DNA of 64,000 bases from positions 744,001 through 808,000 of the forward strand of contig LSAX01000003.1 of NCBI GenBank assembly GCA_001557505.1, given 5' to 3'. Made by a program: the position numbers and the translations under genes. Positions within the stretch are counted from its first letter, which is position 1; each line of letters starts with the position of its first letter. The notes beneath the pieces are model-generated. The model did not search any database. It saw nothing but the letters and a program-made list of their open reading frames with translations, and was not told where the DNA came from. The stretch is from Reticulascus tulasneorum. Its lineage: Eukaryota; Ascomycota; Sordariomycetes; Glomerellales; Reticulascaceae. Shown here piece after piece: positions 74 through 49,285 of this stretch.

Positions 74-1839
74 ATGGGAAGGCTATTTCGCTCAAGAGGG
101 TCCAGCAACAAATCTGTAGTTTCGCACACCAACCCACAGCGAATCACCATGACGGATGAAAAACAAACAGACAAGAGAATAAGAGAATTTCTCAAGCCAT
201 ACAAAGTGGGCCGACAAAACGGGCTAGACTGGTTCTCGACACTTCTCACATGGAGTGACGCCGAACTGAAGCGCAGGGACGTTGCCATCAAGCAATCAGG
301 GGAGCAGGTAAAAGCAGCGGAGGCTACACTCAACAGCATCCGAAAAGACAACAAGAGTTTGCGTTCCCAGTTGAAACACCTCGAGTGGGCAGAAAATGAA
401 ATGCAAAAGAGGGACAGTGAAATTAAACAATTGAAGGAAGATCTGAACGTTTCAAGGACTCGGGGCAACGAATGCTTTATTGGGTGGCAAAATTGCACTA
501 CAAAACTTAACGAGACTATATCCGACCAGAACCGATGCAAGGAAGAGCATAAGCAAGCCATAGCCAACTTCAACAGCGCTCAAACCGAGCTACAGATCGT
601 ACATACCTCTCACCAACAAAACCTGGAATTCATTGAGCAGCTCCAGCAGGATATTGGGAACTTGCAGCAGTCTGTCCGACAATTGGAGCATGATAAAGAA
701 CACTACATACAGCAGCATGCCAGAGTCATCGAAAACGCTCGCATTAACGAATTGGACATGCAAGCCCACTTAGAACGAGAGAGTGACCGTCTTCTAGGTG
801 AGAAGGAAGCCGCGATATCCACTCTGAATGGCAAGTTGGATAAGATGCAGGCTGAGCACTCCCAAGAACTCGCGAGACTCAATGCAAGCATCGAGTCAAA
901 GATAACATCTCAGACGAAGCAGCTTAAACAGACTGTCGACAGTTTGAACAGACGCATCGCCTCCTACAGTACTGGGAGCTACACTGCAATTTCGGATCAA
1001 ACTTTCAGCCTTGCATTCCAGACCTTGTCGCAGCAGGTGAGCAACTTAGTCAGTTGCGCTCCCAAGCCTGAAACATACCTATTCGACCAGTCCCTGGATC
1101 CCCAAAACTATCTTAACAGAAGTGGACATTTGGGGAACAGGAGCTGGCCGAAATTCGTACGCCACACCTGTTGGAAAGTCTTCCTCAAGGAGTTCTTCCA
1201 GCATCCTCTCGGGTTTGGTGCTCTGGGAAGTCACGGGCAGGGATACAATGCTCTCTATCAACTGTATCAGCTTTTTTCACGACCTGATCCTGAGGGTAAG
1301 CTTATGAATCTCGCATGGCTTAGAACTTGAGCTGACACATTGTAGATACAAGTGGTGTTATTCTAACTCTCCCAAACAACAAGGAGACCAACACCTGGAG
1401 AGCGGCTTTCTTTGACGCAGTCCTGAGAGACGTTCGTCAATCCTCGGGTGACACTCAAGAGAAGATATTTTCCTCTATGTTTCGTGCGAACGTTCAGTTT
1501 GTTACTCAGGAGTTGGTGGACACTTTGCAGCACATCTGTAACGACAAATTGGATCCTCGGGCCTCGGCGCAGATATCTAGCATCGCATATGAGCTTGGCA
1601 TCCTTGCACTGGAAATGGGCTCACAAAGGGCGCAGGTTCTTCTTCAAACCTGCGAGTTTGAAGAATGGGTGAGTCCAGACGAGATGTTCAAGGATGAGAA
1701 TGACTCGTGTGGATCGAACATGCAGGTGGATTTGATGACCCAGCCGTGCCTAAAAAGGGTTGGAGACGGCCGGGAAGACTTTTCAACTCAAAGAGTGATT
1801 GTGAAGGGCCATTTTGTATCGCTGAATGTAGGTTACTAA
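74..1839 (+). CDS. Coiled-coil protein of unknown function (possibly 5' partial)
   Basis: Two exons, 74-1295 and 1346-1839, joined across a 50-nt GT-AG intron with a CTGAC branch-like site; the spliced frame gives about 571 residues. Residues about 50-300 are rich in Glu, Gln, Lys and Leu with heptad-like spacing, so a long coiled coil is expected. The C-terminal 170 residues are a mixed, more globular region of the kind conserved in fungal hypothetical proteins; I recognise no named domain. The frame is open from ATG 74 back to base 2, so the true start may lie outside the window; ATG 147 is another candidate start. Function unknown. A structural or scaffolding role would fit a coiled coil, but that is only inference. 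Confidence 0.7.
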
Positions 1840-2948
1840 TTACGATAGGCTGCTCTGCAATGACGTTGAGCAAATCTCATGTGGTTCGGTTCCACATGAG
1901 ACATAGCGAGCAGCTAATCAATTCCACAATCCTCCTTGTCGTAATAAGTCTACAGGCGAGTTAAGGTGGAAACTTCTGACGTTGGCGAGATATTTCCAAT
2001 TGTTCATTGCACTTCAGGTGGCCAGTAGGATAAACAGTAGTTCAGATGCGGCTCCATCAGCAAGCAGCGATTCCGTCCACAGACGTTTAGGAGGCCACCC
2101 ACCAGGCTGTTCGTAAAGCCCAATTCTCATGTCTCGTCTGCATCAATAAACTAGTCGAGTTTGCTCGAATTATTTCAGTGTGCCTAGTGCCGCAGCCACA
2201 GCACTATTCGAGCAGGCTGCCTCGCACTAATAGAGCCTCGTCAGCCATCACGGAGCCAAATGGAAGAGTAATTACAATTCTAATATCATCTCTGCCACGT
2301 TCCATGCGTGGCCTCTAGCCGAGACAAATGACGGCAGTAGTTCATGGCCTAAGGCGGGCGGTTACGGGAGCCTGCTTGAGATAGTCAATACCGTACAATC
2401 AGAAGAGTTTGAGGTGTCACCTTGCAGCAAGGCGGAGCAATGTAGAATCTAGAAGTATACATTTTGTCCGAGCTGCATGCGAAAGACTAGATGCAGGCCT
2501 ATCACACTCACATGATCTTGGACTAGAAAGAACGTCGTATTCTGTTGCAGTCATCCGAGTTTGAAGCTGAATGTGGAGGCAGAATTATGACCAGTCCTTC
2601 TGCGCCAGCCTTACCTTCAACAGACCCTCTGCTGCATCACTCAATACTACTCTACACTAGGCGTTCTTGGCGGATCCAGAATGACAGATTCAATAGCAGT
2701 ATGAGAATGTATCTTCAAGTACCAGTTTAATGGTACCTGACGGTGACTTCGTTGGTCCGGGCTCTAGGGCGAGGCTTTCACGATGCATCAATCGGCCCTA
2801 GGAGAGGCTTCTATGAGAGCGTGCAGCAGTTCTAAGATACAACATTATCGATGCATGCTCCTAGATCAATCCTTCGGTACTTCCTTCAAAGCGAAAGCTT
2901 CGGTCACGCAGGATTTGAAAACTCCCACAACCATCAACCTGATTCAAT
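1840..2948. other. Intergenic region, no gene seen
   Basis: About 1.1 kb between two plus-strand genes. Only short unsupported open frames are present. I see no RNA gene, terminal repeat or transposon remnant. Confidence 0.5.
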
Positions 2949-4471
2949 ATGGAAAGGAAGACTCTTTGGACGCTTGCTGGCCAGCCTCTTCCATCAACTG
3001 AGCTGGAGGGGCCTGTTTTTGTGACAATTTGGCTTTTTGTCTGCATTGTATTCGTTTTTGGGTTTTGGAGACAACTTTCAAAGGAGAAGCCAACATGGCC
3101 AGAGTTTCGGCCAATCTTGGTTGGAACTTCCCTCCTTGCGTTGTGAGTCTTCATAATATGACATCTCCTGGACGATGAGACTGATCAATGCAGCTGGTAT
3201 TTGATAGTAGTGGTCGACCAATGGATTCATTACGACAGGCGCACGATGCCATATGGATACATCCTCATAGCCCCGATTTGGGAGATCTTCCGGGTCTCTT
3301 CAACAGTTGTATTACTATGGGGGACTTACACGGTGGTGTGGAAAGAGCTTGAAGATCAATTCAACGAGAACCAACAAGGTGTATGGTGGCTAGCCGCCAA
3401 GATTGCCATCTTCCTTGTGGGTCTCGTTTCCTTCTTCTACGTGGTCTTATTCCTTGCGCTTTCCATTGTATGGATGCAATTTATGAGCTTGAATATTATT
3501 GCCGATATCGCCAGCAAACGAACGTCCTTTGAAGTGGCTATGACGGCCTTCTTCTTTGTCTTTAGCGCCCTGACGTTGAGTGCGGCGACTGCGACAATCT
3601 TCATTCAGGGAAGAAAAAAGCAAGGCGGTGTCCGAAAGGTGAGTGAACTGGTTCAAACGGATATACATCTCCCAGCTTACCCTCGTGTCAGACTCGCATT
3701 GTCCTCTGGTTTGCAACCCTGATACTTTTTGCGCGTTCGACCAGCGAGTTCGTCATCACGGTCATGGCATCCGAGCCGAACCAGACTCGGCAGTCCATGC
3801 TACTCTCACGACAAATCTCCTATGGCTTGCTTACTAGCCTATACCTCACGATGATATTCATACTGGCCTGGAAGGTCTCTACTGGCTTCGACACTGGTGG
3901 CAAAGACGCACGACGTATTGAATCCAACCTTCGTAAAGCTATCCTCGAGAAGCTTAATGCTGCCACCAATGGCGCAAGACGGCAGTCACCACCATTTGAC
4001 GCAGTTCTTCATGAGCTTGAGAATAGTTTGCAGACATTGCTCAGCAACGGTTCTCTCGGCTCAGGCTCGATGATGAACGCAGTCGATAATCACAAAGCAG
4101 CTGCTCAGTACATTCAAAAGTTGAGGCGGGATTTCGGCCGTCTTGATCCGAAGGAAGGGGCCGATTATGCCTCTCGTCCCGCTTCAAGAATCTCTGAAAT
4201 GTTTGGCCGTAGGACGGGCAGACGATCTGGTGGCTCTAACGGACCCGCACACATGGCTTCCAACTCAAGCATGAGAAGTCAGGGCATGCCCAGACACACA
4301 ACGCCCGTCATGGTTCCTCCAAGCGGACCTAGGCGATTGTCCCCCATGGCTCTGTCTGGAAGCAGCTCTACAACTGATGGGAGATGGGTGGCACCGACTA
4401 TTTCTACGCATCTTGAGTCCGTAGAGGATGTAGAGTTGGGCTCAGTTAGGGGCAACTCACGTCGATACTGA
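2949..4471 (+). CDS. Seven-helix integral membrane protein, unknown function
   Basis: Three exons (2949-3142, 3194-3638, 3692-4471) joined by introns of 51 and 53 nt give about 472 residues with all phases consistent. The first 270 residues contain seven strongly hydrophobic segments: near residues 20-37, 55-75, 85-110, 125-170 (one long or two close helices), 180-205, 213-235 and 245-265. There is no signal peptide before the first helix. The last 200 residues are hydrophilic, rich in Ser, Arg and Gly, and probably cytosolic. The layout resembles fungal seven-helix receptor-like proteins, but no CFEM cysteine pattern and no RTA1 or classic GPCR motif is visible, so family assignment stays open. 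It converges on the next gene with 153 bp between the stops. Confidence 0.75.
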
Positions 4472-15184: not shown

Positions 15185-16030
15185 ATGTCCTCCATAGGTA
15201 CCACCTCCTTAAGCGGCACCTCCATATCCATCCAGACACCTACCAGCGAAATGTCAGATCATATAGCTAGTCCAGCTCTTCTGCGCAAGATTGACAAACT
15301 TCGTGAGAAGAACATTGGCAAGCATACTCCTTTGCCGCAGGCAAGTTCCAATAGCCTAAATTATCTCATATTGCGATCCGTTTAACCTCTGATGTTAGCT
15401 CGTTGTAGTTGGCGACCAGAGTTCCGGAAAATCATCTCTCTTAGAGAATCTGACGGGAACCCCATTTCCCCGAGATATTGAGCTTTGCACTCGCTATGCG
15501 ACACAGATTACTTCTCGCCGTGACTCCGAGACCCGGATCGATATTACGATCATTCCCGGGGAGCACGCTTCTTCAGAACACCGCGCAGCACTTGGTAGAT
15601 TCCATGAAACTCTAAGATCAAAGTTCGAGTTTCGTGTTCAGTTCAGCCAAATACTGGCCAAGGTATGTTACTTGATTCCCGAGCCAATCTGCTGCAACTC
15701 TTTTTAAATGGAATGCAGGTGAACTCTGCGATGGGAATTCGAATGGATACTTCATCGAAGTATGGAACAATGTTTAGCGAAGACGTGCTCAAGATCGAGA
15801 TCTGCGGACCTGATGAGGATTATCTGACGGTCATCGATGTCCCAGGGATTTTTAGGGATCCGGCAGACGGCGTCACCACCAAAGACGATATGGACTTAGT
15901 CAAAAAGATGGTCGTTGAGTATATCAAAAATACCCGAACCATCATTCTGGCTGTCCTCCCCAGCAATATCGACATCGCCACCCAGGAAATCCTTGCCCTA
16001 GCCAGAGAACACGATCCATCAGGCGAACGT

Positions 16031-16038
16031 ACACTGGG
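16031..16038 (+). repeat. Target-site duplication, left copy
   Basis: ACACTGGG, identical to 19187-19194. It is part of the dynamin coding sequence (the Thr-Leu-Gly codons before G4). Confidence 0.95.
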
Positions 16039-16058
16039 CAGCGCTACCGCAAATACAA
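16039..16058 (+). repeat. hAT terminal inverted repeat, left
   Basis: CAGCGCTACCGCAAATACAA. It matches the reverse complement of 19167-19186 at 19 of 20 positions, the only difference being A versus C at position 8. Confidence 0.95.
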
Positions 16059-16068
16059 ACATATTTAC

Positions 16069-16162
16069 AAATCATCCAAGCAATCCAAGCAATTCAATCC
16101 AAATCTAAGATATCCTCAAACAAATCAACGTAATTCGAATAGCTTCAATATTTGGATGATTT
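16069..16162. repeat. Left subterminal inverted repeat of the hAT element
   Basis: AAATCATCCAA at 16069-16079 is repeated as its reverse complement at 16152-16162. Between the arms lie CAATCCAAG (16081-16089) and TCAATCCAAAT (16094-16104). Confidence 0.7.
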
Positions 16163-18788
16163 GCCAAGCCTCATCACATAACTAGGCACGTGCTTAGGCA
16201 CGTGTATTGTCTTCCCCTTACTCTATTATAGGGCGAAACGTGGTCAAACTGACGTGTTTTCTAGGTCTGCCGGGTAACATCCGACTTTATATCGTTAGAT
16301 ATCCTTTATCTGAGCTTTCTTAAGAGCCTTTTCGAGAGCTTTTTCGAGAGCTTTCTCGAGAGCTTTATCTATCTGATATCTAATTCTCTCTTCTTAATAA
16401 TTTTTATAAAAAGCTTAAACATGTTTATTAGACTTTATAAGATATGTCTAAGTCTTCTTGAGTAGCTTAAAAGATCTTATAATATGATATTATTTATTAA
16501 TCTTGATATCTTTGACCTTTTATCTATTATTTAGAAATAACGTTAGTTTATATTAGAAAAGTTAGTTTATTATAAGAAATTAAGGTATTTATAGATATAA
16601 GATTATAAGCTTTTTATTATTAAGTTTGATTATAATAATAAGATAATAAAAGTATATTAATATTATAAGTTATATAATTTAAAAGGTTATTTAAAACTTT
16701 TTAAAATAATAATAATAAGCTTTTCTATAAGTTATCTTTTTAAATAAGTTATTTAATAAAGCTATCTATAATTTATTAATAATCTATATTAAGAAATATT
16801 AAGTTATTAAAATATCCTTTTTTATAAAATCGAAGTCTTTTAAACCTTTTATTTTCTAATTATAAAGAGATATTATCTTAAAACGTCTTTAGATATACTT
16901 AATAGTTATTCTTTTAATTATAATTTAATATATTTAAGATCTAAACGTTATTTTTATTATTAATATAAACCTCTTATTCTTAATATTCTTAAATAAATAT
17001 CTATAAGAGATCTTCTTTTTTTTTAATATAAACTTTATAAAATAAGTCTTGTAAAGCTATAAGATTATCTAATAAGACCTTAATTTTATATTTAATAAGA
17101 AATAAAAAAAGATAATATAATAGATATTAAAAGTTATAACGAAAATCTATCTTAGTTTTAATATATAGATTTCCTTTAATTAATATACGATGATAATAAT
17201 AAATAAATATTTTATTAATAATAAGAGGGCTTTATAAAACCTCTTATTAACTTTTTAATGTTAATTAGGCCTTTATAATGATAAGAACCTTGTATATACC
17301 TTTAAGAAGGTTATCTAGTATTAAGATATTATTAAGAAGATTAGATATATAATAATAAATAACGTTATAAATAATAATATTTATTTATAAAGTTTATATC
17401 TTCGTTTTGATATCTTAATGATCTAATTAGATATTAAAAAACGTTAGATATATTATCTTAGGTATATCTTAAACTTAGTTATTTATTTATTTTTATATAA
17501 GGAAGATATTAATACTTTTAAGCAAAAGTCTGCTTTATATAAGTTATAAGTTCTTAAATAATAAGATCTATGTTATTAAAGATAGAAAAATGTTATTAGG
17601 AAACTTTATAATATTATCCGTTTTATCTAAGTTTTTTTATAATAAAGTAAAATATTTAAATAAATTGTTAAAAAGTTAGAGATAGAAAAAGATATATACT
17701 TTTTTTATAATAAATTAATTATTAAGTTTAAGGTTATTTAGAATAATGATATATATTAGAATTTAATATATCTTATAATCAATTATGTTTTAACAAAGTA
17801 AGTTAATATTAATAAGTATATTTAGGTTTTAGATTTAGAAATCAATTAGTTAAAATATCTCCTTATTAAAGATTATTTATTTATTAAAGATTAATATATC
17901 TTAAAAGAAGTTAAGATAGTTCTTAAGCTGATATATTATTTTACAATATAAACGTAAAACTAAGGTAAATTAGATAATAATACTTATATATAAATAATTC
18001 TTATAAATTTTAAATATTTATTTAAATATCTTAAAGATTAGACTTTCTTATATATAGACTAATTTAAGATAATTTTAAATATACTTAAGTTATAAATTAT
18101 TATTTAATAATAAATTAAAGATTTATAATTAACTAAATATTTAACTTTATAATTAATAAGCTTAATAATTAAGCTAACTTAAACTTGTTAATAGCTTATT
18201 TAAATTAATAATTATAAAACTTATATTCTTAATAATTTTAATCTTATTATTTTATTAAAATACTTTTAAAATAAAATAATTAACTTTTTACAGTTTATAA
18301 TTAACTTTATAAATAATATTATCAAACTAAATAACCTAGGCTAACTCTATATCTAAACCTTTATTATTAATACCTAACATAAAGTTAACAAATATTATAA
18401 TAAATTAAGAAAATTACCTCTTTTTATAATAATTATAATCTTATATCTAACCTTTAATCTAAGTTAGCTTAAATCAACTTAAGATTTTCTTAAATAATAA
18501 AGATAAATATAAAATATAAAAAAATAACTTCAATATTATCTTAATTAATAATATCCCTAAATAAACTTATTATCTATATATCTATTAAACCTTTAACCTC
18601 CTTAATAATAAGATCAACGTTAATATAAATATTAATAAGAGATAAATAACTTTATATAATTTATAAAAAATAAAATAAAACCTCTATTTATTAATATAAA
18701 AAGAGAACTTAAACAATATTTCCAGCTTAATATACTTAATCTTAAAGATCTTAACCTTATCTAATAATAATATAATCATCAATATAAA

Positions 18789-19019
18789 TACCCTTACTTA
18801 TATTATCTTACGTTAGATCTCCTTATTATTCCGGCTATAACTACTAACTACGAACGTACCTTTAGCTAAGTAAAATTAGTCTTAACCTTATAAAGGTTCT
18901 TGATATTACCTAGCACACTTAAAATTATTCAGTATCTTAAGAACTAGCTTCGTAAGGACTATATCCGTCTAGGGAGCTGTTTTGCTGTTCGGAAGGAGGC
19001 TGATGATAAGGCTGAATAG
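18789..19019 (+). pseudogene. hAT transposase C-terminal (dimerisation) remnant
   Basis: The plus-strand frame from 18789 reads through a recognisable hAT tail: a LDLLIIPAITTNYERTFS segment, then VKLVLTL, then LKN-stop-LRKDYIRL, ending at the natural stop 19017-19019. Internal stops lie where the family has Gln after ERxFS (CAA to TAA) and Trp in the LKxWL motif (TGG to TAG), both C-to-T or G-to-A changes expected of RIP. Sequence upstream is too AT-saturated to read as protein. Confidence 0.85.
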
Positions 19020-19134
19020 TTATTATAACCTCATCTTGATAAATATAAGGGCTTAGACCCCTACTCCAATACAAATATATCAAATATTTGCAATCAAACC
19101 AAGTTCAATCAAATCGAGGGCTTCAAAAACCCAC

Positions 19135-19166
19135 TCAATCCAAATATGAGGCCATATTTGGATTGA
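19135..19166. repeat. Subterminal hairpin of the hAT element
   Basis: Two perfect 14-bp arms (TCAATCCAAATATG at 19135-19148 and its complement at 19153-19166) surround a 4-base AGGC loop. The core TCAATCCAAAT recurs near the left end at 16094-16104. Repeated subterminal motifs are transposase-binding sites in other hAT elements; that role here is inferred. Confidence 0.8.
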
Positions 19167-19186
19167 TTGTATTTGCGGGAGCGCTG
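19167..19186 (-). repeat. hAT terminal inverted repeat, right
   Basis: Reads CAGCGCTCCCGCAAATACAA on the minus strand; partner of 16039-16058. A 14-bp hairpin directly abuts its inner end. Confidence 0.95.
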
Positions 19187-19194
19187 ACACTGGG
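19187..19194 (+). repeat. Target-site duplication, right copy
   Basis: ACACTGGG, identical to 16031-16038; the dynamin frame resumes directly after it at 19195. Confidence 0.95.
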
Positions 19195-20725
19195 TGTCTT
19201 GACCAAACCCGACTTGGTCTTGGAGGAAAATGCGAAGAAAGCCGTAAGCAATTTGGTTCTAGGCAATAAGAGGCCTCTCACTCTGGGCTACTACCTCGTA
19301 AGAAGCAGAGGTTCAGATGAGAATGATGACGCGCAAGACACACAAACCCAGCGCGAACGGCTGTTTGACCAGTCGCCATGGAACGATCTTCCTAGAGATC
19401 GGGTCGGCATCAAGGCGCTCAAGACCCGCCTTTCGGAGTTGCTCAGCCAGATCGCAGGACGTGAGTTTCCAAAGTTGCGGACAGAAATTCGAGAGCGCTT
19501 AGCAAATTATCGCAAAGAGCTCGATAGTCTCGGCCCTGCTCGGCAGTCAGACAGAGAGCAGCAAATGTATCTGACGACAATGGCTCGAAGATTCCAAGAC
19601 CTTGTTCGTGCATCTCTTGAAGCCCAGTACTCCACCGACCCAGTCTTCGAGGACTTCAAACTCAGACTAATTACACACGTCGTCAATTTTACAGAGAAAT
19701 TTTCAAGCCGCTTCGAAGGGGCTGCTCACTATCTTGCGTTTGAAGAGATTGAATCAACGAGGGTTGTAGGGGCAAGCGTCGCCTCGGCAAATCCGTCATT
19801 GGATTTTGTGCCGCCCTATGCCGGAAACGATGAAGCCAACAGCGTTGGAGACTTATATGAGACTGAAGGCTTTCAATACGACATTGATATAGAGCAGTTC
19901 CCGGACCTTGGCGAGATTGTCACTAGCGGGGACACTCTGCAGCCCCCTAGGTCTGGAATCATGGATTGGATCGAAGATCTCCACACCCGATCTCGCGGTG
20001 CAGACCTGGGAATATTCAGTGGTACGATCTTATCCAGCGCTTTCAAAGAACTATCCCAAAAATGGGAGGGAATGACAAAAGCATATATCACCCAGGTTAT
20101 CATAGCTATCCACCAGTTCATCATTAGTGTGCTGAAAGTTGTGTGCCCCGACTCACGAGTCCGAGAAGAGCTGTTCTCATCTATACTCGATGAACTGATT
20201 CGGCGGTACAAAACTGGGATGGATCAAGCTGTATTTCTTGTTGCCATCGAGCAAAACAAGAAACCGTACACGCTTGATCCTGTCTTTAACGAGGAGGAGC
20301 AAAAGGCCACCGGGATGAGAGTGGCACAAATGCTGGAGAAGGAAGCTCGAGGAAAGTCAGAGAACGTGCCCTGGATAAGCAAGCTGGGTAAGTTGGTGAT
20401 AGGCTTTGATGCTGTCAGGAATGCCACTGCAGATAGGAATAACTTGGAAGGCATCAAGCAGAAGATCCACGACATACTGAGGTCATACTATAAGGTCGCT
20501 CGCAAACGCTTTGTGGATAACGTGTACCGCCAAGCGGTGGATCATTATTTACTAACTGGGCCAGATTCTCCACTTGCAGTTTTTAATCAGGAGTGGGTGA
20601 TTAGGCTCGATTGCGAGCAGCTTGACACCATCGCGGGAGAGTCGCCGAGCACAAAGGAGCGCCGGCAGAAATTGGAGAAAAATATCGAGGATTATAAGGA
20701 AGCTTTGGATATCTTGAAACGCTAG

Positions 20726-42735: not shown

Positions 42736-45700
42736 TCAGGCGAGGCTGTTTTCTGCCTCCCATTTATCCTCTTCCCCGCCGTTCTGAACCGGAGCAGGCG
42801 GCTCGACAACATCACCGGGAAGTAAACCCTCGCTCACCAATGTCTGCAAGGCATCGTCCCTGGCCAGCAGAAGCTGCTTCTTGACACGCAGTCCGTCCAA
42901 CATCTTCAGTCGCTTGCAGCAGCCCACAAACACAATCTGATACAGCCGGCGCCGAAGCTTTGTAGCGTCATCCAGCCGGCTGGCAAATAAGTCATCTCTC
43001 TCTGGCTCAGCGTCTGGCAGGGTGAACGGATCCACGAAATCGGTTCGATCAGTCGGAACCATGACCTGGACTGGCGGATAAAAGCCTTGGGTGACCGGAT
43101 TGTCCCTCAAATCTAGCTGGCTCAAGTGCGGGAATTCCGTGAGGATTTCTGTCACGGATGTCGCATCAGCGAGGCGGTTCCCCGCCACAAGAAGCTTCTT
43201 CATTCTTGGGATATATCGTATTGGCGAGAGATCGGCGATGGCGTTGAAGTTGAGATTCAGCGACCTCAAGTTCGGCATCAGCTGGCCAAAGCTCTCAGGC
43301 AAGGTTTGAAGACCACAGTTGGCAAGCTCCAGCAGCTGCAAGTTGAGAAAGTCAACCTTTGGCTCGAAGCTGCCAATATAATTTCCGGACAAGAAGAGTT
43401 TTCGGATCTCATACGCTGCCGAGAGGAAGGAGAGGTCAAGCTGCTCACTTCCCCGCTGCTCTCTGAGCGACAAGCTGTCAAGATGCCGTGCCCGCGTAAA
43501 CCCAATGATCTTGCTGATACAGTTCCTGTCGGCGTGAAGAAGACGCAGAGAGGGCAGGCGGCTGACGTCGAGAGACAGAAGGTTGTTGTCACTTAAATCC
43601 AGATACCGCAGATTCTGTAGACCATCGCTCGCCTCCACAGTAAAGCTGCCTAGAGAGTTCCGCTGAAGCTTGAGCGTCTCCAGAGACGAAAGTTGTCCGG
43701 CATTTCGGATGGCCCTAATTTTGTTGCCTCCGAGGTCCAGTTCCGTCAACCGGTGAAGCTTGGTACCTTCGAAGTCAGCCTCTTCAATCAGATTGTCTCT
43801 AGCTCGTAAGGTCAGAAGCCCATCATGGAAATTCAGGCCATCCAGCGAGGTAAGTTGATTATTATCCGCCCGCACACTTCGAAGATGCACCAAGTTCTTC
43901 AAGGCTGATAAGCTCTCGATTTCGTTGTCAGACACGTCGACATACTGAAGGTTTGCGAGATGGTCCCAGGATGTCAATTCTGATAAAAGGTTGTGGGTCA
44001 CCTTCAGTTGCCGGACGGAAGAGGGCACACCATCGAGATGTCCGATGGAGTTGTTCGATGCATCAAGAACAACGAGACGACCGCAGAACTCGTCCAGCAT
44101 GTGAAGGCTGGAGAGCCGCTTATCACTCAAATCAAGATCCGTAAAGTCCTCCCAGTATGGCTCGAACGGCTCCACTTCTGTGAGCTTGTCTACCAAATCT
44201 CGAACCGTCATGGACATAACTCTCTTAGAACCATCGCCAGTCATAAGGTGGCGGTCCTCAACAATGTAGCTGACCTCAAAGCCGAATGATTGCTCAGCAT
44301 TGTTCAGGGTGAATTCAGATAGGGGACTGAGGGACATGTTTCCAACATTCTGGCTGATGATGGCACTAGCATCCCGATGCAGAGCCGCCACAGCTGACTT
44401 CCCTGGAGTGGTGACCACGAAGCTGAGGCTCGTACAGCGGTTCTCGGCGGCGCGATGACTGACAATACTGTGGTCACCGACGATGCTGACTTGCCTGCTC
44501 TCGTTATAAGCGTGCTCTGCGGCACTCTCTTCGTCCTGCTCATCGATGCGGGACACGGGCCGTGGCATGAACGATTCACCCTGTACAGCGAGATGCCTGG
44601 TTGTGCCACGGGAGGTGCTTCGAGCGCGTGGTTGAAGTAGCCTTTTTCGCGCAGATTTCGTCAAGCTTTGATACCGAGCCCGCCTCGTCTGATCTGAATC
44701 GACATGTCTGTCCGACTGCGCCAGCACACTAGCATCATCAGAAAGATTGTCTATGTCTTCCGCCGCGACATCCTGGATTATCGATGCTATCGGTGACGAA
44801 AAGGATATGGTCAAGTTCCGTTTCCGTGAGGCAGAACTAGCGACTCGATCTTCATGGAGACTAATCTCATGTTCAACGTCCTCAGCATATTCCCGTGAAG
44901 GGCTAGTCCCTGCTCTGCTTTCAAGCTTTGTCAATTCGTCCCTAGCCTGAGATGCGAAGTCTCCTGTGACGGCAGCATTGGGCGAGAGAGTCACATATCC
45001 CTTCAGTGACTGCCGCTGAGGCGTCTTTGATGGGCTTGTGGGGCCACGAGCACTCAATCTATTTACGGCATCCATGGCGTCCTGCGCCTCGGCTTCCTTT
45101 TGCGCGGCGATGATTCTTAGATGCTGCATTTCTTTGGTCATATCAACTGACAAGTCAGGAATGCTGCCAAATGGATCGTCTTCGCTGTCCTCGGATGGAA
45201 GTACGCTGTGAGCACGAGGTCGAGCCCCCGAACCTTTCCGCTTGATCCAAATGTTTTGGTGTCGGTCCAGATACATGCTGCCAACCTGATCCGGGATCAG
45301 ATGCGAAACACTCTGTGGAGCGATGGTCTTCCTTGAGTCCGAACCACGAGACGAGTTGGTAGGGATAGAGCGGTTGGTAGAACTGCCGGAAGAATTGGAT
45401 GGGAAATCTACGCCATCCTTACTTAAGTCCTTTTGCTGCATTAGGTTTTGGCTAATCCTAATATTGGGGGGATCACTGATAATGGCGTTTCCCTGAAAGT
45501 CTTCGGAATCGGTGAGATATACTCTGCTCCGGGGGCTCGACTCAAGCTGTCGTTCGATTTCCTGGGCGGCTCGAAGGGCATCCTTTGCCTCAGTCATCGA
45601 GCGAATAGAAGATGTGATTACATCACCCATATCACTAAGTTCCTGGTATTTTCGAAGGTGATCAAGGATTTCGGGATCTTCCTGCCTCGCTGGAAGTCTA

Positions 45701-48261
45701 GCGACAGGTTTACCTTCACGGCTTGGTGGACGAGAAAATGGCTCTCTGGTTGACTCTTGGAAAGACTCTTCCAGCATGTCTGGGCTTGGTTCTCCGTTTT
45801 CCGTTTCAGATTCCTCAACGCTGGTAAGGCCGCTTGGTGGCTTTACCTGGCCCCGAATCATGGCCATGATCTTGCCAGCTTCATCGAGAAAATCCTGGGT
45901 CCTGATCGATGGCTTGCGATCCGTTTCGCCCGCGCCCGAGTAGTCTGCGAAGCTTGCAGCGAATTGTGAAGCTCGATTAGGCGATCGCCTCTGAGGCTGC
46001 TCCTCGAGCATCTCGTCGTCAGCAAACGGGTGCTGTTCTCGCTGCAGCGAAGATCTCTGACTAGGAGTCGGGGTGCGGGGACGAAGCATTTGCCGGACTG
46101 CAAGTATGTTTGGATTTGCCGCCTGCTGGAGCTCTCCAGGACGGGCATCCTTGCGCTTCTTGCCCATTATTGATTGCATCTGCTGATGTGATGTGAGAAC
46201 CGAATCTAGGGGCCCATTTTGATCATCTCGACCATATGCGATATCCGACTTGTGAAGTGTTCGCCGCCGTTTGGGGGTTGGATCTTTTGACGGAGAAGTT
46301 CTTGGCCTCTTTCCCTCCGAGCCACTGTCGCGCTTCTTCGGAGTCGCGAGGACTTCGGGACCAGGTCTCAGCGCCTGGTTATTCTCTCTGCGGAGACTCT
46401 GCAGGCTGCCCATTGAGAACGTTCGGGTGTTCTTTGAAGAGGACATTGTCGTGACTGATTTTTGTCGCTTTCTTCTCACGTACAAATGGTCATCGTCTAG
46501 GGGGGAAGATCCGAGGGGTAAATTGAAGCTTAGGGGATGCTCGGGCGCGAACGAGTCCTGTTCAGGGTCTATGTTTTCCAAGTCGTCGTCAAAACATGAT
46601 TCATCATCAGGCCGAACTGCAATATCCTGGGTGAATTCGTATCCTTCCAAGTCTCCTGCGCCGAACTGGCTGACTGATCTTGAGCTCGGCATTGTCGAGA
46701 GCGAATCATACATGGGTTTCTGAGGACTAGATGCATGGTGTAACTCGGACTGGGAAAGCTCATCTGGAATATTAGATTTTGGAGAGTGTCGAGATGAACC
46801 AGTCATTTGGTCCTCAAACTGGCTGATCCTCCGTAGTAGAGTCTGGTTGGTGAAAGTGTCGTATGGACCGAAAAGCTTCAACGGACTGCCCCCGTTGTTT
46901 TGATTCTTTGCGTTTCGCTTCTCAGGACTAGGATGCGGGGCGCGGAGTGCTGGGGGGCTTTGGGATCTTATTCTCCTGCTTCCGTATCCCATCTCATCGA
47001 TTCTGATCGACGGGTATTGCTTCGGAGTGCTTGCTTGCAGGGACTCTTCCGGGAGCATCTCAGAAGTGTCTGTTCCCAGGCCGGGACTTAGCACTCGATA
47101 TCTGAAGGAGCCTTCTGCGGATCTTCCCCCTCTCTTTAGGTTTAGAAATCCCCCATTACGAGCGTAGTCTTCAGTGTTCTCGACACCATACGAACCGTCC
47201 TCTTTGTTGGTTGTGTCAAATGACAGATCCATGTCAAGTTGCGAGTCGATAAGCATCTGATTGATTCGAAGTTTCTCCAGCTTCTGTTTCAACTGCTCCG
47301 CGGGTACCTCGATGGGAGAGAAATCGACCTGGCCATCATTGGCTCTCTGTCGAGCGAGCAAGATTGGACTAAAATCCTCGTTTCTTACATCGCTCTGACC
47401 GCTAACCTTCCGTGACGCGTCGTTAGGCGGCGCAAGCACACTGACAGTCGTTGCCACGGTCTGAACACTCTCCTTCGCGCTGATATCTCGGCAGTGGGTA
47501 TCCTGATGTATACTGAAATCGCTGAGTCTGCTTGGCTCGACCGAGTCCTCCGTCATTTTGTATTTGACCTCTCTTTGCTGTCGTCTTGGACTTGGGCTTG
47601 GACTACCATCCATATGGTCCTCGTCGGATTCTTCGTCATCCTCCTCGTCAAAACCAACTTCTCGGGCATGGTAGAGTGGCGGACTCGAAGGGAAAGTCGT
47701 GTTGTTCTGTAGGCTTTCGTCCTCTAGCGAATCGTCTGGTTGCGGCGCAGGTGGTCTAAACATATTTTCCAGCCCGGTGGCAGCGGAATGAAACAGATCC
47801 CGCTGTTCGCCGTACGCGACATCGCCGTAAACCAGCCTTCTCTTCCATTCCGGTGTATGGCCCTTTCCTTTCGGCGGCGATGCGCTCACCGATTTGTGCT
47901 GGACTGTATTATGGACAACAGAGCCATTTGTCGATGCCGAAACGGATCGGCTCACATGTCGTCCTCGTTCGGAAAACTTTAGTTCTTGCGAAAGCTTGTA
48001 TGGCCCGCGTTGGGAGGCGGGGATGTTGATCTCGTTTGAGCTTCTCTCGCTCAGTACACTGATGCTATTATCATTTGCACCAGGCAGAGATTGCTTTGGC
48101 TTTGATATTGGCAGAGGAATCTTGCTCCCAGATCCGCTAAAAGTGGGAGCCTTCGTATTCTCGGCCGATTTTAACGAAGGCAGTTGTCCAGGTGGGGATG
48201 CGTCCGAACCATGCTGGGAGACCCAGTCCTCGGACAGTGAGTCAAGCCAGGCGTGCTCCAT
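42736..48261 (-). CDS. Septation-initiation scaffold, Nud1/Cdc11-like leucine-rich repeat protein
   Basis: One uninterrupted 5.5-kb exon, 1,841 residues. The first 1,340 residues are disordered and rich in Ser, Pro, Arg and Asp, with many SP/TP and RxxS sites fitting heavy phosphorylation. The C-terminal part, about 1350-1740, carries a run of leucine-rich repeats (LDASNNSI, VDVSDNEI, LDLGGNKI, LDLSDNNL, LNLNFNAI, LDLRDNPV), followed by a cap segment (RRRLYQIVFVGCCKRLKMLDG) like the Nud1/Cdc11/centriolin type. In yeasts and Aspergillus (Cdc11, Nud1, SnaD) this protein sits at the spindle pole body and anchors the septation/mitotic-exit kinase cascade. Orthology is inferred from architecture. 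Confidence 0.87.
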   Translation of the reverse strand: MEHAWLDSLSEDWVSQHGSDASPPGQLPSLKSAENTKAPTFSGSGSKIPLPISKPKQSLPGANDNSISVLSERSSNEINIPASQRGPYKLSQELKFSERGRHVSRSVSASTNGSVVHNTVQHKSVSASPPKGKGHTPEWKRRLVYGDVAYGEQRDLFHSAATGLENMFRPPAPQPDDSLEDESLQNNTTFPSSPPLYHAREVGFDEEDDEESDEDHMDGSPSPSPRRQQREVKYKMTEDSVEPSRLSDFSIHQDTHCRDISAKESVQTVATTVSVLAPPNDASRKVSGQSDVRNEDFSPILLARQRANDGQVDFSPIEVPAEQLKQKLEKLRINQMLIDSQLDMDLSFDTTNKEDGSYGVENTEDYARNGGFLNLKRGGRSAEGSFRYRVLSPGLGTDTSEMLPEESLQASTPKQYPSIRIDEMGYGSRRIRSQSPPALRAPHPSPEKRNAKNQNNGGSPLKLFGPYDTFTNQTLLRRISQFEDQMTGSSRHSPKSNIPDELSQSELHHASSPQKPMYDSLSTMPSSRSVSQFGAGDLEGYEFTQDIAVRPDDESCFDDDLENIDPEQDSFAPEHPLSFNLPLGSSPLDDDHLYVRRKRQKSVTTMSSSKNTRTFSMGSLQSLRRENNQALRPGPEVLATPKKRDSGSEGKRPRTSPSKDPTPKRRRTLHKSDIAYGRDDQNGPLDSVLTSHQQMQSIMGKKRKDARPGELQQAANPNILAVRQMLRPRTPTPSQRSSLQREQHPFADDEMLEEQPQRRSPNRASQFAASFADYSGAGETDRKPSIRTQDFLDEAGKIMAMIRGQVKPPSGLTSVEESETENGEPSPDMLEESFQESTREPFSRPPSREGKPVARLPARQEDPEILDHLRKYQELSDMGDVITSSIRSMTEAKDALRAAQEIERQLESSPRSRVYLTDSEDFQGNAIISDPPNIRISQNLMQQKDLSKDGVDFPSNSSGSSTNRSIPTNSSRGSDSRKTIAPQSVSHLIPDQVGSMYLDRHQNIWIKRKGSGARPRAHSVLPSEDSEDDPFGSIPDLSVDMTKEMQHLRIIAAQKEAEAQDAMDAVNRLSARGPTSPSKTPQRQSLKGYVTLSPNAAVTGDFASQARDELTKLESRAGTSPSREYAEDVEHEISLHEDRVASSASRKRNLTISFSSPIASIIQDVAAEDIDNLSDDASVLAQSDRHVDSDQTRRARYQSLTKSARKRLLQPRARSTSRGTTRHLAVQGESFMPRPVSRIDEQDEESAAEHAYNESRQVSIVGDHSIVSHRAAENRCTSLSFVVTTPGKSAVAALHRDASAIISQNVGNMSLSPLSEFTLNNAEQSFGFEVSYIVEDRHLMTGDGSKRVMSMTVRDLVDKLTEVEPFEPYWEDFTDLDLSDKRLSSLHMLDEFCGRLVVLDASNNSIGHLDGVPSSVRQLKVTHNLLSELTSWDHLANLQYVDVSDNEIESLSALKNLVHLRSVRADNNQLTSLDGLNFHDGLLTLRARDNLIEEADFEGTKLHRLTELDLGGNKIRAIRNAGQLSSLETLKLQRNSLGSFTVEASDGLQNLRYLDLSDNNLLSLDVSRLPSLRLLHADRNCISKIIGFTRARHLDSLSLREQRGSEQLDLSFLSAAYEIRKLFLSGNYIGSFEPKVDFLNLQLLELANCGLQTLPESFGQLMPNLRSLNLNFNAIADLSPIRYIPRMKKLLVAGNRLADATSVTEILTEFPHLSQLDLRDNPVTQGFYPPVQVMVPTDRTDFVDPFTLPDAEPERDDLFASRLDDATKLRRRLYQIVFVGCCKRLKMLDGLRVKKQLLLARDDALQTLVSEGLLPGDVVEPPAPVQNGGEEDKWEAENSLA

Positions 48262-49285
48262 GGCGACGCTGGTAGAAGAGGCGATGAGAAATCGATCGTG
48301 AAGCTATCTTGAAGCCATGAATCACGCGTGTCTTGGGTAGGGAATGGACTGTGTGGGGCGTGAATATCGCGGGTGGCCGTTGTAAACACAACTCAATTGG
48401 GTGATGCTGTGTAGTGCGAAGTAACAGCTTGATCCCAGGGTCAAAGGCAATAGTAAGGGAATCGAAAAATTATACCGGAATGTGTACTCGCGATGCTTGT
48501 CGCATTGAGGCTCTACCGGAGCAGCATCAATGACTCTCGGCGCGGTCGTCTTTCTCGCGTCCACTACACAATTGCTTGCAGGAGTAAACACACCAATGAT
48601 TGGTGGGGTGCTTGGTTGCTGTGTCAACACGGCTTGTTATTCTTTCGCCTTCGGAGCTTGTGGATCTTCCGCTCCGTAAAGCCAATAGTGTGTGTACGCA
48701 GCTCACCAACCACGTAAATCCACTCCGACCGACCAGGACATTCTGCCAGGATGTCTGGGGATCATTAAGGACCTATCGAGAAGTGTACAAAATGCTGTTC
48801 TGTCTTTCAAGGTCGCATACCATGGAACGCAGAAAGCTTCAACTTATCTAGTAATGCACACCTTCGGGTAGTCGCGTCTCACTGCTCTAATTACTTGCTA
48901 CCAAGGGTTCTTTAGGAGCACTCGAGGAGCAGCAAAATGAAGGAGAGCAGAAGTACCGTAGATATCAGATTGCATTAGCATACATATGTGTAGTCGTCGC
49001 TGGCCCATATCATCTTGTTGGGCTGGAGTCTCGTCAAGATAAAAAGCACTTAAACACGAGCTCACGTGCTGACGCGGGGTCGCGTCTCCCAGTGAACGCG
49101 GTGGATCCTCGCCTGCCAAATCTCGGTTCGCTATCGTCGTGAGCAACTGCACCTCTACAGAGATTTGTCACATCAGCCGCATCAATCGTCGCCAAATCGC
49201 AATCTGATGCACCTGTCCGACAGCTTCCTATCGGATTTGTCTCTACCAGTGTTTTTATGGCTGTATAACCACAGCAATCAGCGCA
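48262..49285. other. Divergent upstream region of two large genes
   Basis: About 1 kb between the starts of the scaffold gene (minus) and the Pro-Trp-repeat gene (plus). Only short unsupported open frames were seen. Confidence 0.5.

Follow-up and report, generated by a model that had tools for sequence, protein, structure and literature searches.

In this stretch of 64,000 nucleotides (the whole of which we call the window), an insertion lies inside a gene for a dynamin-like GTPase. This raises the questions of what was inserted, what became of the gene, and how recently the two were brought together. We give a probability of roughly 0.8 to the combined reading that a hAT transposon landed here, that it created a null allele, and that it did so recently.

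A dynamin-like gene interrupted near its G4 motif

The features of the locus, with the basis for each, are as follows.

15185..15340, plus strand: exon 1 of the dynamin-like gene, 52 codons, ATG at 15185 (open frame)
15399..15662, plus strand: exon 2, G1 motif GDQSSGKSS (Pfam Dynamin_N, E 7.7e-13)
15719..16030, plus strand: exon 3 before the insertion, G3 motif DVPG (Pfam Dynamin_N, E 5.6e-15)
16031..16038, plus strand: left copy of the target-site duplication, ACACTGGG (junction, duplications of the family)
16039..19186, plus strand: hAT element, 3148 bp, with a RIP-mutated interior (ends, target-site duplication, sister copy of identical length)
16039..16058, plus strand: left terminal inverted repeat, 19/20 with the right one (end comparison)
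16339..18938, no strand: RIP-mutated zone with GC near 0.15 through most of its length (composition, copy comparison)
18705..18944, plus strand: degenerate hAT C-terminal dimerisation domain with five in-frame TAA (PF05699 at G000:C12:762705-762944, E 2.9e-7)
19167..19186, minus strand: right terminal inverted repeat (end comparison)
19187..19194, plus strand: right copy of the target-site duplication, ACACTGGG (junction, duplications of the family)
19187..20725, plus strand: remainder of exon 3 with TLGVLTKPD (G4), stalk, GED and stop at 20723-20725 (Dynamin_M, E 4e-19; GED, E 1.2e-5)

Once the element and one copy of the duplication are removed, the gene at 15185-20725 has 756 codons. The exon pieces to the left of the insertion contribute 52 + 88 + 104 = 244 codons, and the right part (19187-20722) adds 512 more, in phase with the left and without stops. 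The first-pass annotation had claimed that the frame becomes continuous in this way and that all other dynamin codons are open, and both claims hold for the exons and the right part alike. Both introns are predicted from the sequence; the first (15341-15398) would be of the GC-AG type, as judged from CAG/GCAAGT...TAG and from where LVVVGDQ falls in the relatives.

The domain order and motifs identify the predicted product as an Mx-like dynamin-related GTPase. It has the G1, G3 and G4 motifs (G1 starting at residue 57, DVPG at 180 and TKPD at 250), a Dynamin_N domain, a stalk (Dynamin_M) and a GED. The solved structures nearest to the right part are Mx1 (5gtm) and a chain named Dynamin (6fgz), each at E 9.1e-8. 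The gene thus shares the order Dynamin_N, Dynamin_M, GED and the motifs with the Mx-like dynamins of ascomycetes, but differs from them in being interrupted by an element and in reaching at most 53% identity (right part, 120 listed relatives).

A protein search with the right part returned 575 relatives at E <=1e-10, of which 120 are listed and used in all comparisons. The closest is 53% identical (best 120 of 575), and those with a stated organism are fungal among the matches listed; their names include "dynamin family protein", "interferon-induced GTP-binding protein Mx2" and "hypothetical protein". The earlier reading would be refuted if orthologous proteins did not span the junction; this outcome did not arise, since among the 120 best listed relatives 117 continue across the insertion site. 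The pattern R.?[TLI].G..TKPD is matched by 116/120, and 73/120 carry exactly TLGVLTKPDL. One protein (P0079) misses the pattern yet continues through the site with ERPLGILTKPD, and three (P0019, P0032 and P0046) are without TKPD at the junction position. The first-pass annotation had also proposed a search for an uninterrupted ortholog or paralog. Besides the continuous relatives, this yielded a paralogue in the same genome (C34:705981-708124, the nearest, 44% identical in the right part) that is unbroken at the site.

A third Mx-like dynamin relative (G000:C2:2439326-2442892) lies on the minus strand at 542-3036 of its stretch in several open pieces. Its stops in the genome search are probably introns, as the G1, DVPG and TKPD pieces are all present. 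We dropped a reading of this gene as a pseudogene without DVPG, since that motif lies in a third frame between likely introns. No close relative of the source fungus was found through the dynamin (best 53%, among 120 listed of 575), and no sister species through the inositol polyphosphate kinase encoded in the window (120 listed of 1215), whose organism-named relatives (Podospora, Diaporthe) reach at most 59% identity and whose best unnamed relative reaches 65%; these matches hint weakly at a Sordariomycete-like fungus. Elsewhere in the window, a 1,855-codon open frame on the minus strand (42739-48303) encodes leucine-rich repeats towards the C-terminus (Pfam LRR_4, E 6.3e-27).

At the junctions, perfect copies of ACACTGGG flank the element at 16031-16038 and 19187-19194, as had been claimed. 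The octamer occurs on the plus strand of the 64-kb window only at 16031 and 19187, and 21955 is the one site of its reverse complement. The "20-bp inverted repeats" of the first-pass annotation are present at both ends, but they are imperfect by one base because the first 20 bases of the ends match at 19/20. The element splits codon 247, 64 codons past DVPG and shortly before TKPD at residue 250; this motif count agrees with the position given earlier for the break. The insertion had further been placed "exactly between" G3 and G4. It does lie between the two, but close to G4 rather than midway.

As it stands, the frame runs 22 codons into the element and then meets a stop, giving 269 residues that end before G4, the stalk and the GED. 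The disrupted allele can thus encode at most a 269-residue piece, and it would be functionally null because such a product is without these three parts.

One way to rescue the gene would be to splice the element out; a RIP-killed transposon would then be an intron of a functional gene. In maize the hAT element Ds is spliced, which offers a precedent. Using the GT at 16029 as donor and the AG at 19180 as acceptor would keep the two halves in one frame and add a single residue immediately ahead of G4. Within 15980-16129 this is the single GT that lies ahead of the element's stop codon and has an in-frame acceptor. It has four frame-keeping AG sites in the right end, one of which gives the single extra residue; because one donor has four such acceptors, in-frame pairs seem to arise easily, a judgement made from the observed sites. 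The usual donor consensus has G at +5, which the donor GTACAC does not, and an intron of 3.15 kb is very long for an ascomycete. Because of the poor donor and the length, both judged by general rules, we regard splicing as highly improbable. An assembly artefact is a negligible prospect given the exact target-site duplication, the full-length element and a contig of 4.79 Mb.

The inserted element and its family

The 8-bp target-site duplication, the short terminal inverted repeats (termini CAGCGCT.../...AGCGCTG) and the degenerate dimerisation domain (PF05699, E 2.9e-7) place the element in the hAT superfamily, in agreement with the first-pass annotation. No intact transposase frame was found; the longest stop-free stretch at element positions 401-2800 is 66 codons. 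The element in the dynamin gene is dead.

Searching the genome with the element produced 101 stretches of similarity, many of them weak and AT-rich, and 40 of 54 candidates were scored. Both ends could be delimited in 18 family copies, the window's included; L012, L013, L014, L019 and L028 have one end each and were left out of that set. The 18 comprise 15 with exact 8-bp duplications, one with a single mismatch and two without. Three are long (3.1 kb, GC 0.18-0.20), and the remaining 15 are derivatives of 437-915 bp with GC 0.35-0.44. Chance origin of the junction anatomy is excluded by the exact duplications across the family together with the hAT domain inside the element. The hAT-domain matches in the family copies L011, L012 and L018 also contain stops (9, 9 and 6, respectively). 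Genome-wide, 2/44 such matches are without an internal stop, neither of them in a stretch of this family.

The short derivatives fall into size classes: L015, L016 and L017 at 915 bp each, L029 and L031-L035 at 437-640 bp, and L036-L038 at 513-523 bp. These 12 have GC 0.35-0.43 without deep AT-richness, and 9/12 have perfect duplications. Open frames adjoin several family copies, with 113 and 130 codons on the two flanks of L017, 344 codons to the left of L031 and 161 to the left of L011. Because these frames are sizeable, further genes may have been hit by the family.

The hAT transposons of filamentous fungi include Restless, Folyt1 and Tfo1. The window element shares with them the 8-bp duplication, the short terminal repeats and the C-terminal dimerisation domain, and short internally deleted derivatives are common to both. 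Unlike the superfamily in filamentous fungi, to which we liken it by general features only, the element has an interior destroyed by RIP and ends that are largely spared.

A recent separation from a sister copy

The element has a twin of identical length (L010), a sister copy located 3.0 Mb away on the same contig. The two differ at 361/3148 sites, and every difference is a transition, with 0 transversions and 0 gaps. Against other copies the window element shows 69 transversions (L011), 28 in 1,976 bp (L012), 45 in 1,186 bp (L014) and 2 in 932 bp (L013). Zero observed transversions give a 95% upper limit of 3, a rate near 0.1% per site. Under the assumption that transversions make up 1/3-1/2 of ordinary mutations, the divergence of the pair outside RIP would be below about 0.2-0.3%. 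The window and sister copies therefore parted recently. This comparison dates the parting of the copies; for the age of the landing it sets a limit only on condition that the landing was simultaneous with that parting or later.

The state of the gene was examined against the 120 listed of 575 relatives, with exon 1 omitted. The window protein keeps 114/116 near-invariant columns (97% invariant among relatives) and has changed 2/116; the median relative has changed 1, and 41/120 listed relatives have changed as many as the window protein or more. The host gene thus shows no decay, with conserved residues nearly all retained. An old, fixed insertion in a long-standing pseudogene is very unlikely on this evidence, and we rejected it on the transversion count and the conservation test; it would also have to accommodate the perfect target-site duplication, 756 open codons and a full 3148 bp without a gap relative to the sister copy. 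The description of the allele as a "fresh" knockout was right as to recency and the disruption of a real dynamin-like gene, but it left unmentioned that RIP inactivated the element, before or after landing.

RIP of the element and the order of events

The element interior (16421-18860) has 15.3% GC, a TA/AT ratio of 1.23 and a (CA+TG)/(AC+GT) ratio of 0.28, compared with 0.70 and 1.27 for the whole window. At the element ends, GC is 36-37%, (CA+TG)/(AC+GT) is 1.24 and 1.28, and TA/AT is 0.92 and 1.03. All six other copies inspected (L010, L011, L012, L013, L014 and L019) also have an AT-rich interior. We used short derivatives as guides to the older state; the right guide, L018, is itself partly degenerate. 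In the left interior, C-to-T changes in the window copy affect 42/47 CA, 31/39 CG, 13/27 CC and 33/80 CT sites. Such C-to-T mutation of repeats with a preference for CA is the signature of RIP. RIP operates during the sexual cycle and depends on RID or DIM-2. Strong matches to cytosine methyltransferases occur at two places in the genome (C34, C25), and a weak one at a third (C16). For Neurospora, the rate reported for mutation during the sexual cycle is 3.38e-6 per bp, of which 93-98% is RIP-associated, and this shows how strong RIP can be within one cycle (PMC7296669).

The zone of RIP ends within the element and leaves the gene untouched; no leakage into the dynamin gene is visible at the window copy in 250-bp bins. 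At the flanks of L010 and L011, TA/AT is mildly raised (1.0-1.23) in three bins on the right side, at a distance of 250-1000 bp. The window element resembles Neurospora RIP in its C-to-T changes on both strands, the CA preference and the spared flanks, but differs in that the repeat itself is also largely spared over its outer 200-300 bp. RIP usually, though not by definition, extends over the whole shared repeat, which it does not do in the window copy. Relative to the guides, 15/136 C/G sites are changed in the left 320 bp (L010 shares 13 of these changes) and 7/98 in the right 258 alignment positions (L010 shares all of them), versus 119/193 and 64/131 in the left and right interiors. Against L010, changes private to the window copy number 2 across the outer 548 bp and 174 across the inner 2600 bp. 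Its ends (16039-16338 and 18939-19186) are nearly free of own RIP, yet they are the part of the family most copied genome-wide.

In the history we propose, a hAT transposon moved by cut-and-paste into exon 3 of the Mx-like dynamin gene, where landing duplicated 8 bp of the target, as the anatomy shows; the interior would then have been RIP-mutated during a sexual cycle on meeting a near-identical copy. That RIP followed the landing is, in our estimate, somewhat favoured. The hits of the window copy and L010 appear mostly independent, because the shared counts lie close to expectation by context (97 vs 87.5 in the left interior, 42 vs 36.5 in the right). The small excess (one-sided p 0.010 and 0.038 for CT sites) would permit some RIP before the copies parted but need not mean shared RIP. 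A similar excess against the more distant L011 (99 vs 90.6 and 53 vs 44.6 expected) points to uneven sites or imperfect guides.

The reverse order, in which the element was RIP-mutated elsewhere and then moved here with intact ends by the transposase of another copy, would leave the same insertion and null allele and alter only the sequence of events. It predicts the same mostly independent pattern of hits. The near-RIP-free ends, unexpected if RIP acted over the whole repeat in place, would suit it: the first 300 bp of L010 contain 30 changes private to that copy, including one in the terminal repeat that the left terminal repeat of the window copy does not share. It remains a serious rival because such a move would need intact ends, which the window copy has. 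Short derivatives with good ends and perfect duplications suggest that the family could be mobilised in trans, and the two hAT domain matches without internal stop could mark another transposase source. Against this, among the 40 of 54 candidates scored, there is no full-length family copy with a non-RIP interior; because the full-length copies seen are all RIP-mutated inside, a transposase source within the element's own family is missing. We therefore regard RIP before landing as possible but the less probable order.

Natural transposon knockouts are a common class of event, and RIP after landing or before, this one is ordinary in kind and not new; no published report of this or a like case was found by title. 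It is well resolved in detail. The locus holds an apparent natural null allele of a fungal Mx-like dynamin with the rest of the gene still intact, and the sister element provides a date through transversions, whose clock is unaffected by RIP. Whether fungal dynamins of this kind can be dispensed with, and whether transposon ends escape RIP, are questions that the case could answer.
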